Origin: Ruminococcus sp.
Lineage (GTDB): Bacteria; Bacillota; Clostridia; Oscillospirales; Acutalibacteraceae
Assembly (NCBI GenBank): GCA_017404665.1
Contig: JAFRBX010000004.1
Location: forward strand, 52,703 to 116,702
Reading direction: 5' to 3'
Length of the DNA: 64,000 nucleotides
The position numbers were made by a program, and so were the translations under genes. Position 1 is the stretch's first letter; every line of letters starts with the position of its first letter. Shown piece by piece: positions 48,675 through 61,557 of the stretch. The notes under the pieces were generated by a model. The model was not told where the DNA came from. It worked only from the letters and a program-made list of their open reading frames with translations, and ran no database searches.

Positions 48675-50456
48675 TCATTCAGGATCGCTGAGCTCGGCGG
48701 TGTCATAGATCAGCGGCATGTTGTATTCGCGCTCATAGATCTCTTTCCACAGGGCGTAGTTCCTGTCGCGCATATCGGCGACGCTCTCGCGGTAGGAGAG
48801 CTTGGGGTCGGGACAGATCGGCTCGCCGATGTGGATGGTGTACTCCTGTACAAAAAAGCCGTCTTCGCCCATGATGTCGGAGTCCTGCATGGTGATGAAG
48901 CACGGCAGGACGGGGACGCTGTTGCGCACCGCAAAGCTGTAGGCGCCGTTTTTGAGGGGCTTGGGCTTGCGATAGTTCCACCACATACTCTGTTCGGGAT
49001 AGACGAGGATGAAATCGCCCTTTTGCAGGAGCTTGTCGACGCCCTGCATGAACTTTTTCATCGTGCGCAGGTTAGAGGAGAGGGGCAGGGTGTTGCAGTT
49101 GCGCATCAAAAAGCCGTAGAAGCCCGGGAACGAGGTGTAGTTGCCCTCGCGGATCACGCGCCAGAAGGTGCGGTCGGGCTGCTGCGCCGCGTCGTATGCC
49201 AGCTGCATCGCGAAGCTGTCAAAGGCGTTGAAGTGGTTGCAGGTGATGATGGCGCCGCTGTTCAGATTGCGGAAATTCTCGATGCCCTTGATGTCCTTGA
49301 TGATCATTTTTTTGTCGGCGATCAGCGAGTTGACATAGCGGCGGGCGGCGGCGAAGGCAAATTTGCTCTTCATCTTTTTGCGGATACCTCTGTCGCCGTA
49401 TTCGATCTCGTCGGGCATGAGGGTGCGTGAGGGCGGATCGTCCTCTACGTCTTCGTCAAAGCGTCCCTCGCGCTCGAACTGCGCGATCTTTTCTAAGATA
49501 GCGACCCTGTCCTTATCGCGAACGGAGTTGTCGAGCTGCTTCTGATAATTATCGTCACGATCGGTCTCAAATTTAGCCAGTGCCAACAAGTTGTCCATAA
49601 CCTCCGCATCCTTCATTTTATCTTCTTCAGTGAAATTCTCCAGCACAGCGCGGATCTCATCATATACATCCGTTTCGGCTGCATAGCGCCAGAAAATGTC
49701 GCCGCCGGTACAGTCGGGATAGTGCCAAGGCTTGCTGACCATGATGTAGTGGATGATCTTCGCTTCTTCGATCGGGTAGGGGAAGCTGCAGTACGCTTCG
49801 GTGTTCCAGCGCTGATCGAGCCACAGGATATGATCCTTGCAGATCAGGTTGAGGTAGTCCTCGTCCTGTGTGACGACGAACTGATACTCTGCCAGCCTGT
49901 CCGCAAAGCGACGGAGCACTTCTTTTTTGCGGAACATATCGGCGTTGATGAGCAGTACGCCCGCGTTGAAGAAGTTGTGGCGGGACACGCCGACGACCTT
50001 TTCGGCGTAGGTACCGTAATGGTCGGTCTGCACCATCGCCTGCTCGTGACAGGCGCCGATCCAGTTTTCGCCGAGCTCGGTGCGGTGCAGCTCACTGATA
50101 TCGCCCTGAACGATGGTATCGCCGTCGATATAGATCACCTTGTCATACTCGGGAAACATATCTGCGATGAACATTCGGAAATAGGTGGTGTTGGAATAGT
50201 AATCGCGCACGGGGAGCACGTCGGTGACGGCGTGCAAGCGCTCGCTGACGTCGGTGAAGATGATATCGAAGTTGTTGCGCTTGAGCTTGAGCGCCTTTTG
50301 CTGCTGCTCGGGCGAGATGCCGGTGTGCAGGATATAGATGCTGTAGTGACAGTCGGGCGAGGCGTTTGCCATCATCGAGTGGATCGATACGACGGAATAT
50401 TTGACGAAGCCTTCGTCACAGGCGTAAAAGATCGGGATCGTTTTTTTCTGTTCCAT
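48675..50456 (-). CDS. GT8 glycosyltransferase fused to PlsC-type acyltransferase
   Basis: The 593-residue protein has two domains. Residues 1-275 are a family 8 retaining glycosyltransferase with the metal-binding D-G-D (111-113) and H-N-F-F-N-A-G (160-166). Residues about 275-355 are an acidic helical linker. Residues 380-580 are a lysophospholipid/1-acylglycerol-phosphate acyltransferase fold with N-H-F-N-A-F-D (H408, D413) and V-Y-P-E-Q-S (485-490). The fusion suggests it glycosylates and acylates one molecule, most simply a membrane glycolipid. It is third in a same-strand set with a second GT8 and a stand-alone acyltransferase. Confidence 0.85.
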   Translation of the reverse strand: MEQKKTIPIFYACDEGFVKYSVVSIHSMMANASPDCHYSIYILHTGISPEQQQKALKLKRNNFDIIFTDVSERLHAVTDVLPVRDYYSNTTYFRMFIADMFPEYDKVIYIDGDTIVQGDISELHRTELGENWIGACHEQAMVQTDHYGTYAEKVVGVSRHNFFNAGVLLINADMFRKKEVLRRFADRLAEYQFVVTQDEDYLNLICKDHILWLDQRWNTEAYCSFPYPIEEAKIIHYIMVSKPWHYPDCTGGDIFWRYAAETDVYDEIRAVLENFTEEDKMKDAEVMDNLLALAKFETDRDDNYQKQLDNSVRDKDRVAILEKIAQFEREGRFDEDVEDDPPSRTLMPDEIEYGDRGIRKKMKSKFAFAAARRYVNSLIADKKMIIKDIKGIENFRNLNSGAIITCNHFNAFDSFAMQLAYDAAQQPDRTFWRVIREGNYTSFPGFYGFLMRNCNTLPLSSNLRTMKKFMQGVDKLLQKGDFILVYPEQSMWWNYRKPKPLKNGAYSFAVRNSVPVLPCFITMQDSDIMGEDGFFVQEYTIHIGEPICPDPKLSYRESVADMRDRNYALWKEIYEREYNMPLIYDTAELSDPE

Positions 50457-51286
50457 TACAGATCCTCCGTAGTTTTGATACTGATATACTCGTTGAGGAT
50501 ATCGTCGAATTCATAGTAGTGAAAGACGCTGTGTACCTTATCGACCTGCCATTGCTTGATGTTCTCGGTGTGGGGGTAGGGGGTGTAGAACAGGCGCTTG
50601 GAAAAGTGCCGCACCACTGTATGCGTGTGCAGGAATTTCTGGTCGTTGAAGCGCTGGGGGAGCAGCTTTTTCTTTGTGGTCGCGTGGATCAGCGCCGTCT
50701 GGTCGGCAAAGAGGAATTTTTTGCGTCTGAGCTCCTCACGGGCTTTTTCAAAGAGTTTGTTTTTGCGTGCCTCTTTCATATTGAAAAGGATGACGCCCGC
50801 ATTGATATAATTGGGATAGAGCAGGTACTTGCCGTAGTGATCGCGCGCCGCGGCGTATTCATAACCTTCGACGTCGATATCGTACAGCAGATGCACGTCG
50901 CGCTGGAAGAGAATATCCGCGTCGAGATACAAAAGCTTGCCGTCCTGCGGAACGCCGTCGACGAGGTCGGCGAGCAGCCGCAGCAGGGTGTAAGGAGAGC
51001 AGTAGGCGCCCTCGTTGGGGCAAAAGGCGAATTCCCGCTCATACAGCGCCGTGACGTCGTGGACGGTCAGGGTGTTCTCGGGGTTATATTTTTTGACGGT
51101 CTTTTCCAGCAGGACGATGTGCGCCGCGGGCAGACCGATGTACTTTTCGCTCAGGCGGGGCAGCTCCATGGTGAAGATGTGAAAGGCGAAGGGCTCGGCG
51201 GAGCGGGTGCGCTTCATCAGGGATAAGGCGCAGGTGAGAAAGCCGTCGAAAACGCCGTCGTTTCCGCAAAAGAGTACATGTACCAT
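50456..51286 (-). CDS. GT8-family glycosyltransferase
   Basis: The 276-residue protein starts MVHVLFCGNDGVFDGFLTCALSLMKR. The D-A-D metal motif sits in L-L-Y-L-D-A-D-I-L-F, then N-A-G-V-I-L-F-N, the usual family 8 marks. It would transfer a sugar from a nucleotide donor in the cytoplasm. Its stop overlaps the start of the GT8-PlsC fusion by 1 bp, so the two are translationally coupled. Confidence 0.88.
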   Translation of the reverse strand: MVHVLFCGNDGVFDGFLTCALSLMKRTRSAEPFAFHIFTMELPRLSEKYIGLPAAHIVLLEKTVKKYNPENTLTVHDVTALYEREFAFCPNEGAYCSPYTLLRLLADLVDGVPQDGKLLYLDADILFQRDVHLLYDIDVEGYEYAAARDHYGKYLLYPNYINAGVILFNMKEARKNKLFEKAREELRRKKFLFADQTALIHATTKKKLLPQRFNDQKFLHTHTVVRHFSKRLFYTPYPHTENIKQWQVDKVHSVFHYYEFDDILNEYISIKTTEDL

Positions 51287-52267: not shown

Positions 52268-52698
52268 GATGCGGGGCGGTTGATTACCGCCGCCGTGTCG
52301 AATTATATCAAAACAAGCGGCATATGAAAAGCTACTGATTCAGAGGGAGTATCTACATACAAATTATACGGTTCTACGCTGTGGTTTACGGCGGGTAGAG
52401 CCGCTCTACCGACAGTAGAGTGCACAGAGAAAACGCCGTCGTCATGCGATTTTTTGAGGGAAGAGCTTCTCTACCGGACCGTGATTGCGTTCTATGTGCA
52501 GACGTGCCGCGGAATACGGCGGAAATCTGCATCAGCTGCGTAAATCCTCATGATAATAATCATTATAACAAGTTGTGATTTTGAAATCAAGAGAGATCGC
52601 GAGCAGCCGGAGAGATAATCAAGATGTTATCGCGTAAGAAATGTGCAAGATTGACAGAACAGATGAGCGCGGCAGGGGAGAACGGAGGAAAAAACCAC

Positions 52699-52726
52699 TT
52701 GAAATCCACGCGGAATCTGATAGAAT
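52699..52726 (+). promoter_or_regulatory. Sigma-A promoter of the E2-like gene
   Basis: TTGAAA (52699-52704) and TAGAAT (52721-52726) lie 16 bp apart. Transcription would start near 52733, inside the longer open frame, which supports the ATG at 52816. Confidence 0.6.
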
Positions 52727-52815: not shown

Positions 52816-53382
52816 ATGACCCAAAGCAGAAATGACCGCTTGGCGGCGGATTATCGCGATATGCTCAAGCTGCAGGAGCGCCCCTATCTTTCATGGATCG
52901 CCGTGAAGGGCGAGCCTCCCTGTGCGGAGGAATACCTGCTGACCGTGCGGATCAGGACCTATGCCCTGTCGGTTATTTCCGGCAAATACACCGTCGGCGT
53001 CATCGACCGCTGCACGATCCGAATAACGCTGTGGGATTCTTATCCCAACGTCGCGCCGCAGATCAGGATGCTCGGTTTCCCTCCCGTGTTTCATCCGGGC
53101 TGGTACTCAAAGGGCGTCTACTGCCCCTGTGAGCCGTGGCGTCCCGAAACGACGCTCATGGAGTATGTCATGCGGATGCTCAGAACCCTGCAGTATGATC
53201 CGGCGCTGATCGATGCGCAGTCGCCGGCGAACTACAAGGCGCTGGACTGGTATCTGAAAAATCGGGATAACCCGGTGTGGTTCCCGTCGGATCGCACCGC
53301 GCTGACTCAGAATGACGCGGAAACCGTCGCCGCGATGGAAAAAGCCGCGTTCGCCTTTGACGAGATCATCGGCATCTTATAG
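52816..53382 (+). CDS. E2 ubiquitin-conjugating enzyme-like protein
   Basis: The protein has 188 residues; GGAG lies 9 nt before ATG 52816. The UBC core is readable. A helix and beta meander lead to Y-P-N-V-A-P-Q-I-R (76-84). The H-P-G (93-95) stands where E2s have HPN, G100, then C103 with exactly the His-to-Gly-to-Cys spacing of eukaryotic E2s. W108 and the closing S-P-A-N-Y-K-A (136-142) follow. C103 is thus the probable thioester cysteine. The HPN asparagine is replaced by Gly, and C105 is a second nearby cysteine. No E1, JAB protease or ubiquitin-like gene is adjacent, so partners must be elsewhere. It is monocistronic with its own promoter and terminator. Confidence 0.75.
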   Translation: MTQSRNDRLAADYRDMLKLQERPYLSWIAVKGEPPCAEEYLLTVRIRTYALSVISGKYTVGVIDRCTIRITLWDSYPNVAPQIRMLGFPPVFHPGWYSKGVYCPCEPWRPETTLMEYVMRMLRTLQYDPALIDAQSPANYKALDWYLKNRDNPVWFPSDRTALTQNDAETVAAMEKAAFAFDEIIGIL

Positions 53383-53398
53383 AAGCATCATAAACGAA

Positions 53399-53422
53399 CA
53401 GCACCGCTTTCGGCGGTGCTGC
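53399..53422. terminator. Terminator after the E2-like gene
   Basis: CAGCACCGC and GGCGGTGCTG form a stem with a TTTC loop, followed by CTGCTTTAT. Confidence 0.7.
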
Positions 53423-58017: not shown

Positions 58018-59088
58018 ATGAAAATTAAAGCCGTAAAGTTACCAAGTGGGAATTGGAATTGCAGAATCGGATATACTGACGCAGATGGAAAACGACAGAG
58101 AAAATCTTTTACTGCTCCGACTAAAGCAGAAGCGTTAGCTTTAGCAACAGATTTTAAACTGGAAAAGAAGTTAAAAAAGAATCCGATTAACAGAACGCTA
58201 AGAGAAGCAACAGAAGCATTTATAAATAGCAGAGAAAACCTTTTATCTCCCTCTACGCTTGCAGGGTATAAATCTATAAGCAAAAATGCGTTACAAGCCC
58301 TTATGGATAGAAGAATAGGAAGCATTACAGCAGAAGAGTATCAGCAAGCACTTAATGAATACGGCAGAGATAAACAGCCAAAGACTGTTAAATCAGTACA
58401 CACTTTTTATCATCGAATACTGAAAGAATACGGTATTGATATAGCAGATAAAGCAACAATAAAGAAAAAGGTTGCAACCGAGATCGAGATACCGACAGAT
58501 GAAGAAGTTGTAGAGATTCTGCAAAAGGTTAAAGGAACAAGATTAGAGCTTTTTGTCAATCTGATTGTTGCGCTGGGTTTAAGAAGAAGCGAAGCAATCG
58601 CTATTAGATGGAAAGATATTGATTTCAAAAACAATACGGTATATATTCATAATGCAAGAGTTAAGAATGCAGATGAAGAATTTGTAGAGAAGAAAACAAA
58701 GAATGCAACAAGCACTAGAACATTGGATTTACCGCCGCAGTTAGTTGAATTATTAAAGGATAAAAAAGGAAAGCCGAACGATTATGTTATTACCGAGAAT
58801 CCGAAAACCTTATTCAGCGATTATAACAACAGAGTATCAAGAGGTGAATTCAAATACAGACCGCATTCTCTGCGCCATTACTACGCCAGCGTAATGCTCA
58901 AACAAGGCGTACCGAATAAATACGCTAAAGAGCGCATGGGACACGCTTCTGAATATATGCTGACAAGAGTTTACCAGCATATCGACAAACAGAAACAGGC
59001 TGAATATTCTGTAGTGTTAAACAGCTTCTATGATAACCTTGCAAAAGAAGCGGAAGAAACGCCGCAGGATGCCGCTACGGTAGAGTAA
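58018..59088 (+). CDS. Tyrosine recombinase (integrase)
   Basis: The 356-residue protein has an N-terminal AP2-like arm-binding domain (1-45; KLPSGNWNCRIGYTDADGKRQRKSFT), a SAM-like core-binding domain (about 60-140), and a catalytic domain. The catalytic residues are Arg in L-G-L-R-R-S-E-A, H-S-L-R-H, G-H-A-S and Tyr in T-R-V-Y-Q-H. It would integrate or excise the element at the adjacent tRNA-Thr. Its AT-rich codon use contrasts with the backbone. It is closed by the terminator at 59107-59144. Confidence 0.95.
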   Translation: MKIKAVKLPSGNWNCRIGYTDADGKRQRKSFTAPTKAEALALATDFKLEKKLKKNPINRTLREATEAFINSRENLLSPSTLAGYKSISKNALQALMDRRIGSITAEEYQQALNEYGRDKQPKTVKSVHTFYHRILKEYGIDIADKATIKKKVATEIEIPTDEEVVEILQKVKGTRLELFVNLIVALGLRRSEAIAIRWKDIDFKNNTVYIHNARVKNADEEFVEKKTKNATSTRTLDLPPQLVELLKDKKGKPNDYVITENPKTLFSDYNNRVSRGEFKYRPHSLRHYYASVMLKQGVPNKYAKERMGHASEYMLTRVYQHIDKQKQAEYSVVLNSFYDNLAKEAEETPQDAATVE

Positions 59089-59106
59089 TTAAGTAATAGA
59101 AAGAAG

Positions 59107-59144
59107 AAACGCACTTTGCTAGATGAAACAGCAAAGTGCGTTTT
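59107..59144. terminator. Bidirectional terminator after the integrase
   Basis: AAACGCACTTTGCT and AGCAAAGTGCGTTTT form a 14-bp stem between the integrase and the convergent XRE-like gene. Confidence 0.85.
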
Positions 59145-59361
59145 ATAATATCTGTTCGTTTTCGGTAGGAGTATATTTCATAATCTGTTCTACTTTACAA
59201 TCAAGTATTCTGCATAGATCATTGATTGTAGTAGTATTTAGCGGTTTGTTCTTTCGTAATTTGTCAATAGTAGAACTTGAAATATGGTACTTATTGATAA
59301 GTGTATAAGTTGATTCTTTTGATCTAGATAACGAATCCCAAAAAGGCTCATAAGTAATCAT
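59143..59361 (-). CDS. Small Cro/CI-type HTH regulator
   Basis: The protein has 72 residues starting MITYEPFWDSLSRSKESTYTLINKYHISSSTIDKLRKNKPLNTTTINDLCRILDC. This is the compact HTH_26-type fold found in phages and mobile elements. AGGGGGAAG precedes ATG 59361. It is divergent from the zinc-ribbon gene pair, and the shared 110-bp gap holds two GACTATARTC sites over a promoter (59407-59434). It probably represses that promoter. Confidence 0.85.
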   Translation of the reverse strand: MITYEPFWDSLSRSKESTYTLINKYHISSSTIDKLRKNKPLNTTTINDLCRILDCKVEQIMKYTPTENEQIL

Positions 59362-59404
59362 ATTACTTCCCCCTTTGAGTATATTGTAATTTATAGCTTT
59401 TTTC

Positions 59405-59434
59405 TTGACTATAGTCGCTAAAAAGACTATAATC
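59405..59434 (+). promoter_or_regulatory. Sigma-A promoter with overlapping repressor sites
   Basis: TTGACT (59405-59410) and TATAAT (59428-59433) lie 17 bp apart. GACTATAGTC (59407-59416, a perfect palindrome) and GACTATAATC (59425-59434) cover the -35 and -10, with centres 18 bp apart. Confidence 0.75.
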
Positions 59435-59470
59435 AAAGTAGCCATATTATTATACTTTAGGAGGTTGTTT

Positions 59471-59710
59471 ATGACTGCAAAAGAAATAGTAAAAAATGTT
59501 ATTCTACCAATAGGAATTATAGTTATTGCAATCATTGTAATAGCCACAAGTTGCAGTAAACTATCATCATCTAAAAAGTCGGATAGTGCGGTTTACTGTT
59601 GGTACTGTAGCAAAGTGATATACAACGATGGAAAAGCAATTCACTGTAAACGTGTAGCAGAAGGCAGATACACTTGTGATTATTGCGGAAAAGAAAACGT
59701 AATAGACTAA
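59471..59710 (+). CDS. Small membrane protein with zinc-ribbon tail
   Basis: The protein has 79 residues; AGGAGG precedes ATG 59471. One hydrophobic helix (about 10-29) comes first. A tail follows with C-W-Y-C-S-K and C-D-Y-C-G-K, two CxxC knuckles about 24 residues apart that form a zinc ribbon. It is 18 bp upstream of a larger zinc-ribbon/CFI-box gene and shares its repressed promoter, so the two probably work together. The function is unknown. Confidence 0.7.
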   Translation: MTAKEIVKNVILPIGIIVIAIIVIATSCSKLSSSKKSDSAVYCWYCSKVIYNDGKAIHCKRVAEGRYTCDYCGKENVID

Positions 59711-59728
59711 AGAAAAGGGGATAAAAAG

Positions 59729-60889
59729 ATGAAAGCAATTAAGTGTGAAATGTGCGGAAGCGACAATTTGGTTAAGCAAAATGATTTGTATATCTGTCAG
59801 AGTTGCGGCACTAAATACAGCACAGAAGAAGCAAAAAAACTATTGGTTGAAATCAAGGTTGATAAATCTGATGAAACGGCTAAACTATATCAATTAGCAA
59901 GAATTGCAAAGAAAGATTTTGACGCAGTAAGTGCCGCAAAATACTATGAGCAGATTAAAGTATTATGTCCTGATGATTGGGAGGCGGCTTTTTTCAGCCT
60001 ATATTTCAGATTGTATCAGTGTAGAATATTTCAAATTCAGAGTTCAGCAAACACTTTGAATAACAGCTTGTCAACAGTGTGCCAGTTAGTCCTCTTAATA
60101 AAGGACGACAATAAAAAAGTAATGGTTGACGCTGTACTTGAAATACTTGTTTATGTTCAAGCGTTTGCTAAGACGATGGACGAAAGCGCACTGAAACATT
60201 TAAATGAGTGCTGTACTATTAGAACTTCAACTGATGGTTTTCAAAATCTGATGATTGAGTATGGAGATAGGGCAATAGCAATAGCAAATATGTTACATAC
60301 AGCGGCATTGTTAGCTAAAGGTTTCGTTGAACTAAATACGGGAGAACGGTTAAAATCACAGATTGTTTCCTGTGAAAAAACAGCGGCAAAGTTATTAACT
60401 AATATTCTTGGTTTTGTAGCTCCCCAGTATCGAAGTGAATATACTAATATGCTTCAAGAGTATAAGAAAGTGATAAGAGAATATGAGCCTAGTTATATCC
60501 TGCCATCTTCTGACCTATCTATCTTTAACAACGATATTAGAATAGTACTCAATAAAACTAACGGAAGAAACAGCTTAAGCGGCGAATCCTCAAATACATC
60601 TTCAACATCGAATTCAAGTGGCGGTTGTTATGTAGCAACTTGTGTTTATGGTTCATATGACTGTCCGCAAGTTTGGGCACTAAGAAGGTATCGAGATTAT
60701 TATTTAGCACCTAAAAAATTTGGTAGATTGTTTATCCGCTTATACTATGCGATTAGTCCTACTCTTGTGAGGTGGTTTGGTAAAAAAGAATGGTTTAGAA
60801 GAATTTGGAAGAATAAACTTGATAAGAGGATTGAAATACTAAAGCAAAACGGAGTGAAAGATTCACCTTATCAAGATATTGAGTGGTAA
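59729..60889 (+). CDS. Zinc-ribbon protein with C-terminal CFI-box-like region
   Basis: The 386-residue protein has an N-terminal zinc ribbon (C-E-M-C-G-S at 6-11 and C-Q-S-C-G-T at 23-28). An all-helical middle (40-270) and a Ser/Asn/Thr linker (about 282-300) lead to a C-terminal block starting G-G-C-Y-V-A-T-C-V-Y-G-S-Y-D. The block continues W-x-L-R-R-Y-R-D and Y-Y-A-I-S-P. It matches the CFI-box C-terminal domain found on varied bacterial proteins, whose function I do not know. It carries cargo in a repressor-controlled operon of the mobile element. Confidence 0.75.
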   Translation: MKAIKCEMCGSDNLVKQNDLYICQSCGTKYSTEEAKKLLVEIKVDKSDETAKLYQLARIAKKDFDAVSAAKYYEQIKVLCPDDWEAAFFSLYFRLYQCRIFQIQSSANTLNNSLSTVCQLVLLIKDDNKKVMVDAVLEILVYVQAFAKTMDESALKHLNECCTIRTSTDGFQNLMIEYGDRAIAIANMLHTAALLAKGFVELNTGERLKSQIVSCEKTAAKLLTNILGFVAPQYRSEYTNMLQEYKKVIREYEPSYILPSSDLSIFNNDIRIVLNKTNGRNSLSGESSNTSSTSNSSGGCYVATCVYGSYDCPQVWALRRYRDYYLAPKKFGRLFIRLYYAISPTLVRWFGKKEWFRRIWKNKLDKRIEILKQNGVKDSPYQDIEW

Positions 60890-60923
60890 AAATGCCGCTA
60901 CGATAAAAGGATAAAGAAAGATA

Positions 60924-60960
60924 AAAAAGAGGAAGTAGCGGTTGATCTACTTCCTCTTTT
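60924..60960. terminator. Bidirectional terminator
   Basis: AAAAGAGGAAGTAG and CTACTTCCTCTTTT form a 14-bp stem between convergent genes. Confidence 0.85.
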
Positions 60961-60963
60961 CAA

Positions 60964-61194
60964 TTATGCACATAAGCACATTATTTGTTTTTCATCTAAC
61001 TGCATTATCTGAATCAGACGCCGGAATTCCCACAGCGTAAATCTGTCTATATCGTTGAGCTTGTTGTAAAGCGAGGATTGACTAATCTGTAGCTTTTCGG
61101 CAAGCTCACTTTTATTATATCCGCTTCTGTATAAGTATGCAGTAACCATTATCTTAAATTCAACAGTTCTTCTATCAACCTTTTTCTTTGCCAT
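60964..61194 (-). CDS. Small HTH protein
   Basis: The protein has 76 residues starting MAKKKVDRRTVEFKIMVTAYLYRSGYNKSELAEKLQISQSSLYNKLNDID, a helix-turn-helix of XRE/phage type. GGAGG precedes ATG 61194. It is downstream of, and in operon with, the 61235-61480 gene. It is a likely regulator of element functions, with target unknown. Confidence 0.78.
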   Translation of the reverse strand: MAKKKVDRRTVEFKIMVTAYLYRSGYNKSELAEKLQISQSSLYNKLNDIDRFTLWEFRRLIQIMQLDEKQIMCLCA

Positions 61195-61234
61195 GATAAT
61201 TCCTCCGTTTATTCGTTCTTTTCCGCTACGGTTA

Positions 61235-61480
61235 TTATTCAATAGCGAGTAATTCATCAAGGAACGAGGGCTTTTCTTTCTTCTTATTGGAAAACAGTTC
61301 GGGTAGAAACTGACGAGCAAATTCAGTTCTGAAAGGTGCAAAATATTTTCTTCCTTTTGACTCCTTTTGCTTTTTTATTTCCGCTACGATCCACTCCCTA
61401 GCTTCTTGGTGTTCGGTGTAATACGTCTTTACGAAAGCCTTGTCAATGTCGATTACTTTGGTGATTTTTGTCTCTGTCAT
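61235..61480 (-). CDS. Small hypothetical protein of the mobile element
   Basis: The 81-residue, highly charged helical protein has no membrane segment and no recognised domain. AAGGA lies upstream of the ATG, and a good promoter (61558-61586) drives it with the HTH gene downstream. It ends with P-S-F-L-D-E-L-L-A-I-E. Confidence 0.6.
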   Translation of the reverse strand: MTETKITKVIDIDKAFVKTYYTEHQEAREWIVAEIKKQKESKGRKYFAPFRTEFARQFLPELFSNKKKEKPSFLDELLAIE

Positions 61481-61557
61481 TTTAAAATTCCTTTCTTGAT
61501 TAATTCATTTTTCAATTCAGTTCTGAAGGTGTTGTCCCCTCTCTTTACTGTGACTAT

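Follow-up and report, generated by a model that had tools for sequence, protein, structure and literature searches.

A stand-alone E2 (UBC)-like protein of Ruminococcus sp. and the variable cysteine position of its relatives

The stretch of DNA analysed here, called the window, comprises 64,000 nucleotides of contig JAFRBX010000004.1 of Ruminococcus sp. (genome G000 in our set). At 52816..53382 on the plus strand it carries a gene for an E2 (UBC)-like protein of 188 amino acids (P0001), recognised by the translation of its open reading frame, by matches to Pfam, UBC9 and operonic E2s, and by dN/dS. The reading frame is open further in the 5' direction, from an ATG at 52624 (252 amino acids), but the relatives align from the methionine at 52816 and this start is therefore the best supported. 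A promoter-like sequence, TTGAAA-16-TAGAAT, is positioned 5' of the gene (52699..52726, plus strand) and a terminator-like hairpin 3' of it (53399..53421, plus strand). Both are consensus matches only, in a region with five promoter-like sites against 1.4 expected and seven terminator-like sites against 1.3 expected. The flanking genes, one acyltransferase-like (Pfam just under the cut-off) and one coding for polynucleotide phosphorylase (by eye), are both on the minus strand, and the E2-like gene looks monocistronic. An earlier reading made from the sequence only had described the gene as stand-alone, which agrees with our tblastn search: with 11 queries and E values up to 1, the roughly 9 kb to each side of it yielded no E1, JAB or Ubl gene. 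No ThiF-family match was found on contig C72.

Besides the E2-like gene, the window contains a 593-amino-acid fusion of a glycosyltransferase family 8 and an acyltransferase domain (Pfam) at 48675-50456 on the minus strand, adjoined by a second glycosyltransferase family 8 gene at 50456-51286. At 58018-61500 there is an integrase-like gene with small regulator-like genes after it (by eye); a mobile element may have its edge here.

UQ_con is the sole Pfam family matching P0001 at E values up to 1 (E 6.6e-4, 19.7 bits); the match spans residues 67-151 only and lies below the curated cut-off of 27 bits. No NCBIfam family was found for P0001. A search of the solved structures gave 33 distinct sequences at E values up to 1. 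The top of the list is taken by eukaryotic enzymes, UBC9 and RAD6/UBE2, with UBC9 chains first (phmmer E 7e-5, residues 67-150). In the UBC9 alignment FHPGWYSKGVYC stands opposite FHPNVYPSGTVC of UBC9, and H93-P94-G95 stands opposite its FHPN. At E values up to 1, UQ_con is matched by 12 of the 13 aligned family members, P0001 included, with a best value of 1.2e-6. We also compared a profile of the 13 family rows with bacterial operonic E2s (six clostridial ones and that of Crinalium) using hhalign, and the two align along the domain, over 153 columns, with prob 98.1, E 7e-14 and 27% identity. Judged by these sequence matches, the gene is real and a member of the E2 (UBC) superfamily. This is what the sequence-only reading had proposed, and the HMM search against UBC families that it suggested returned the UQ_con match. 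The fold in detail is putative.

The residues named by the sequence-only reading, H93, G95, G100, C103, C105 and S136-P-A-N139, are all present in P0001 as described. H93-P94-G95 (53092..53100, plus strand) aligns with the HPN motif, whose Asn position holds N in 12, D in 11, C in two, A in two, E in one and G in one of the 29 orphan copies, as we call the stand-alone relatives including the window copy. HPG in place of HPN is thus true of the window copy, the single one with Gly, but it does not describe the family, and the Asn expected of a catalytic E2 is kept in 12 of the 29. C105 (53128..53130, plus strand) is likewise found in the window copy only. Gly95 and Cys105 had been taken to hint at unusual chemistry. 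Because each occurs in one of 29 copies, we rejected the ideas that C105 serves as another catalytic cysteine and that Gly95 signals special chemistry.

The counterpart of the E2 catalytic cysteine is C103 (53122..53124, plus strand). Of the 29 orphan copies, 22 have Cys here and seven have Ser, and the G106 copy has no cysteine anywhere. Conservation of C103 among orthologues was the test that the sequence-only reading had set for itself; with Ser in seven copies, the family as a whole does not conserve the Cys of a catalytic E2 and the catalytic reading fails in part. Ranked by conservation within the first 150 positions, C103 is 68th and position 95 is 130th. The loop F-H-P-x-W-Y-S-K-G-x-Y is nearly invariant, with P94, W96, Y97, S98 and Y102 in all 29 copies and H93, K99 and G100 each kept in 28.

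The Ser codon at position 103 is TCG in G071, G073 and G148, and AGC or AGT in G106, G152, G155 and G164. TCG cannot be joined to AGC or AGT by any single base change, which argues for at least two changes at C103. Parsimony gives four changes on the best tree; the well-supported branches force only one, and both rows from genome G122 are long branches in this tree. That Cys was the earlier state and Ser the later one, and how often the change occurred, is what we infer from these data.

The NG86 dN/dS among the orphan copies has a median of 0.25 over 243 of 406 pairs, leaving aside the 163 pairs with dS outside 0.02-1.5 or undefined. The orphan copies are under purifying selection. For the close pair of Ser copies, G071 and G073, dN/dS is 0.21, so at least these Ser copies are not decaying. 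The fragment G120b was left out of the tree, the entropy and the dN/dS calculations, and the G122 copies were left out of the latter two. The C-terminal part from F156 (53281..53379, plus strand) is mostly without counterpart in the aligned operonic E2s. In the 28 full-length orphan copies the tail carries [IV][IV]D in 25, E-I-[IV]-D in 18 and DSW in 17 cases. [IV][IV]D is absent from G164, G174 and the window copy, which ends in FDEIIGIL.

Within one genus, 30 of the 161 genomes carry the family, 29 of them as stand-alone copies and G122 as the thirtieth. Restricting the set to genomes with completeness of 90% or more and contamination of no more than 5% gives 13 of 81. In total 32 copies and fragments were extracted: the 29 orphan copies (full length in 28 cases, with G120a cut at a contig end), the fragment G120b and two diverged copies in G122. 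In the order-wide sample the family is found in one of 394 genomes, that of the window itself. In the sample of the taxonomic family, P0004 as query has hits in two of 398 genomes, the window's own and G1247. A scan of public genomes for close relatives gave nine loci labelled as uncultured Ruminococcus or Clostridiales, some of them from goat gut; all nine are contigs already within the genus set.

The neighbours of the gene vary from copy to copy; most often, in 14 of 31 loci, there is a gene resembling zinc-dependent phospholipase C (assigned by Pfam on one member). We searched the 30 orphan loci with the 11 queries for E1, JAB, Ubl and ThiS genes, taken from G122, G809, G073 and G124, and no match scored below E 0.2; 19 of these loci have at least 3 kb on both sides, while the remainder run into contig ends. 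The same queries recovered the E1, JAB and Ubl of G122. The survey of neighbours of orthologues proposed in the sequence-only reading thus came out negative for the orphan loci, where no Ubl, E1 or JAB gene was found beside the E2-like gene, and positive for G122, which has the operon.

This G122 operon contains the nearest relative outside the orphan set, E2a, with 45% identity over 160 amino acids. The gene order is E2a, an 80-amino-acid Ubl, JAB, an 86-amino-acid protein, E1 and a second E2 without Cys, followed by genes for a ClpB-like AAA+ protein, an ATP-grasp and a transglutaminase-like protein. The Ubl matches YukD at E 4e-4, below the cut-off. The E1 belongs to the ThiF family and matches the PADLOC E1-E2 models (best 7e-14) and BilD (4.5e-4). 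E2a shares with P0001 the N-terminal helix region, the FHPxW loop, the Cys, the SPAN and the FPSD..LT.N end, and differs from it in being operonic and in lacking P0001 residues 54-60 and most of the C-terminal tail. The second E2 in this locus (L076:1913-11961) lacks both the active-site His and the Cys, and together with E2a it may form an E2/UEV-type pair within a single bacterial system. A short motif, [GS]GF(E/S/T)(I/V)(V/I)(S/R)R, was seen by eye at the ends of three proteins of the operon, namely the C-termini of the AAA+ and transglutaminase proteins and the N-terminus of the 86-amino-acid protein. As the G122 genome is 80% complete with 4% contamination and the operon lies on a lone contig of 12.4 kb, it might be foreign.

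Further operonic E2s were found in the class Clostridia, where the UQ_con search gave hits in six of 391 genomes. At E 0.001 this search did not recover the copy of the window itself, so relatives elsewhere may likewise have escaped it. The E2 in each of the six loci is preceded by a small Ubl-like gene and an E1-like gene (labelled by eye), the E1 of locus L085 being in two overlapping frames. In the five loci that continue past the E2, a JAB-like gene comes next, followed in four by a trypsin-like gene (by eye); Prok-JAB confirms one of these JABs, that of G809. On a Crinalium plasmid, ThiF, two small proteins, E2 and Mov34 are found in a row, which we read as E1-Ubl-Ubl-E2-JAB, the Ubl labels being our own. 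HPN and Cys are present in all seven of these E2s. The E2 domain of the clostridial operons, with their YukD-like Ubl and ThiF-like E1, and of Crinalium aligns end to end with the orphan family, from which these E2s differ in being encoded together with E1 and Ubl. In G1247, an E2-like gene matched by P0004 (E 1.8e-6) lies beside a cut E1 and a JAB (both by eye); no Pfam match was found for the E2 or the JAB of this genome.

The sequence-only reading had also considered a partner encoded elsewhere in the genome, which we sought in G000 (95.93% complete). One ThiF-family protein exceeds the cut-off, and it is TcdA-like (best NCBIfam model PRK15116, under its own cut-off). A hidden E1 was rejected, since the three places matched by the ThiF profile are this TcdA-like protein, a malic-enzyme-like protein and a sub-threshold match cut by stops. 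No YukD, no G122-type Ubl and no Prok-JAB match was found in G000, and the genome thus does not provide E1 and Ubl together as far as YukD and the G122-type Ubl stand for the latter. The absence of partners is strong evidence, not absolute, given the completeness of 95.93%, the ease with which short, fast-diverging Ubls are missed and the under-detection by the Prok-JAB model, which leaves the JAB of G122 below the cut-off and finds none in G1247. Of the earlier proposal of an E2 with unusual chemistry or a distant partner, the E2 family and the stand-alone setting are upheld, but neither the chemistry nor the partner is.

Across the 161 genus genomes, a G122-type JAB is found in one, and a G122-type Ubl in G122 with one weak match in G091. 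E1-family homologues are found in 152 and are, G122 itself apart, at most 37% identical among the matches listed; those of G000, G073 and G124 were inspected. Among the 30 carriers of the E2-like family, Prok-JAB passes the cut-off in two, G073 and G124, and gives sub-threshold matches in four, G004, G122, G141 and G174. In G073 and G124, two of 29 carriers, the JAB lies beside an E1. The JAB of G124, with ThiF- and ThiS-like genes, looks like part of a ThiS/ThiF sulphur cluster (by eye), and that of G073 lies in an FtsK/WXG100-like region (by eye). The latter locus (L137, C153:27000-41000) comprises the Prok-JAB and ThiF-family genes (Pfam), an adjoining gene for a 182-amino-acid protein and the FtsK/WXG100-like genes. 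This cluster was rejected as the source of the E2, the 182-amino-acid protein showing no detectable relationship to it (hhalign prob 0.1) and having no Pfam match. As G073 carries the Ser form as well as an E1, E1 and orphan gene can co-occur.

Since its nearest outside relative lies in a Ubl/E1/E2/JAB operon, such an operon is the most likely source of the orphan gene, presumably with a change from operonic to orphan. The partners undetected in its own genome, the Ser tolerated in place of Cys and the near-invariant His loop together make a binding module the best reading: P0001 is probably a stand-alone E2-fold protein that came from a Ubl/E1/E2/JAB operon and now acts mainly as a non-catalytic, UEV/RWD-like binding module. 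The E2 of a bacterial conjugation operon would have been the ancestor. The gene would then have parted from E1, Ubl and JAB while the E2 scaffold, and above all its His loop, was retained, and the protein may now bind rather than conjugate, using its conserved groove, with the C-terminal tail possibly involved as well. A role in binding is suggested by this conservation. With no partners in the window genome and the Cys missing in about a quarter of the relatives, the enzyme role has probably been lost. Several findings speak against a pseudo-E2. C103 is kept in most copies, that of the window included, only one change at this position is forced by the well-supported branches, and the tail motif in its commonest form is absent from the window copy. 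In addition there are the JABs beside E1 in G073 and G124 and the sub-threshold JAB matches in G004, G141 and G174.

In the species with one of the 22 Cys copies the protein may, by the residues it keeps, have a catalytic role. It could there be an active E2 charged by an E1 and Ubl that are encoded elsewhere or unrecognised, the Ser minority having lost activity. C103 and the H93 kept in 28 copies, the E1-family homologues in 152 genomes and the E1/JAB cluster of the Ser carrier G073 all point this way, yet we think it rather unlikely: the only ThiF-family protein over the cut-off in G000 is TcdA-like, the searches for YukD, G122-type Ubl and Prok-JAB were empty there, and the selection on the Ser pair G071/G073 means that Ser is not simply decay. 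A variant that we rate as unlikely is a free-standing former operon E2 that would be thioester-competent in some species via an unrecognised or borrowed E1, and whose Ser form elsewhere would hold Ubl as a stable oxyester.

A modulator directed at a mobile or foreign conjugation system, binding its Ubl, E1 or E2 as an antagonist or as an immunity factor, would account for the sporadic presence (stand-alone in 29 of 161 genus genomes, among varied neighbours), and G122 attests a Ubl system within the genus. We nevertheless consider this quite improbable. No relative was found in viral contigs by a pattern-based scan (44 stretches), which diverged relatives can escape, or in 50,697 phage records, so a phage source of the gene is not supported. 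Plasmids gave only a weak cyanobacterial match, the Crinalium E2 with 26.6% identity to P0001 at E 0.05, and no PADLOC model, BIL and CBASS included, matched P0001 or P0004 at E 0.01. That the protein acts on eukaryotic ubiquitin of a rumen protist or animal host, charged by the host E1, is very hard to credit despite the eukaryotic enzymes among the best structure matches and the goat gut origin of several relatives, as P0001 lacks, by eye, any hydrophobic N-terminal stretch suggestive of a signal peptide, seven copies have Ser for the catalytic Cys, and a bacterial operon contains a closer relative.

The UEV domains of eukaryotes use the E2 fold without thioester catalysis. The same is described for the eukaryotic RWD domains by Iyer et al. 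2006 (PMC1779556). Measured against these domains, in which the fold is kept and the Cys is gone, the Cys is absent from seven of the 29 orphan copies and retained in the window copy, and binding of Ubl by the orphan protein is putative. Bacterial operons of E1, E2, JAB and Ubl have already been described, as have polyUbl operons whose E2-like domains are catalytically inactive (PMC1779556). Those inactive domains are likewise a bacterial E2 fold without the catalytic Cys; they sit with polyUbl and JAB-E1, whereas the orphan protein is stand-alone with a Cys/Ser-variable site. BilABCD, in which BilB has a CEHH motif, is covered in a 2024 review (PMC11354881). BilABCD and CBASS Cap2 have E2-like domains of bacterial conjugation too, but these are operonic and the orphan is not. 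Among the matches listed in the open-licence PMC literature, we found no stand-alone bacterial E2 with a variable cysteine.

If the preferred reading of a mainly non-catalytic binding module is true, one genus would hold a natural series in which an E2 leaves its partners and then loses its catalytic cysteine under selection. It would be a parallel to the eukaryotic UEV and RWD proteins and a testable case for the origin of pseudo-E2s and for a non-conjugating use of the E2 fold, with the G122 operon, where a Cys-bearing and a Cys-less E2 occur together, as a companion system for tests. If instead the Ser form holds Ubl as an oxyester, one genus would preserve the passage from enzyme to pseudo-enzyme.
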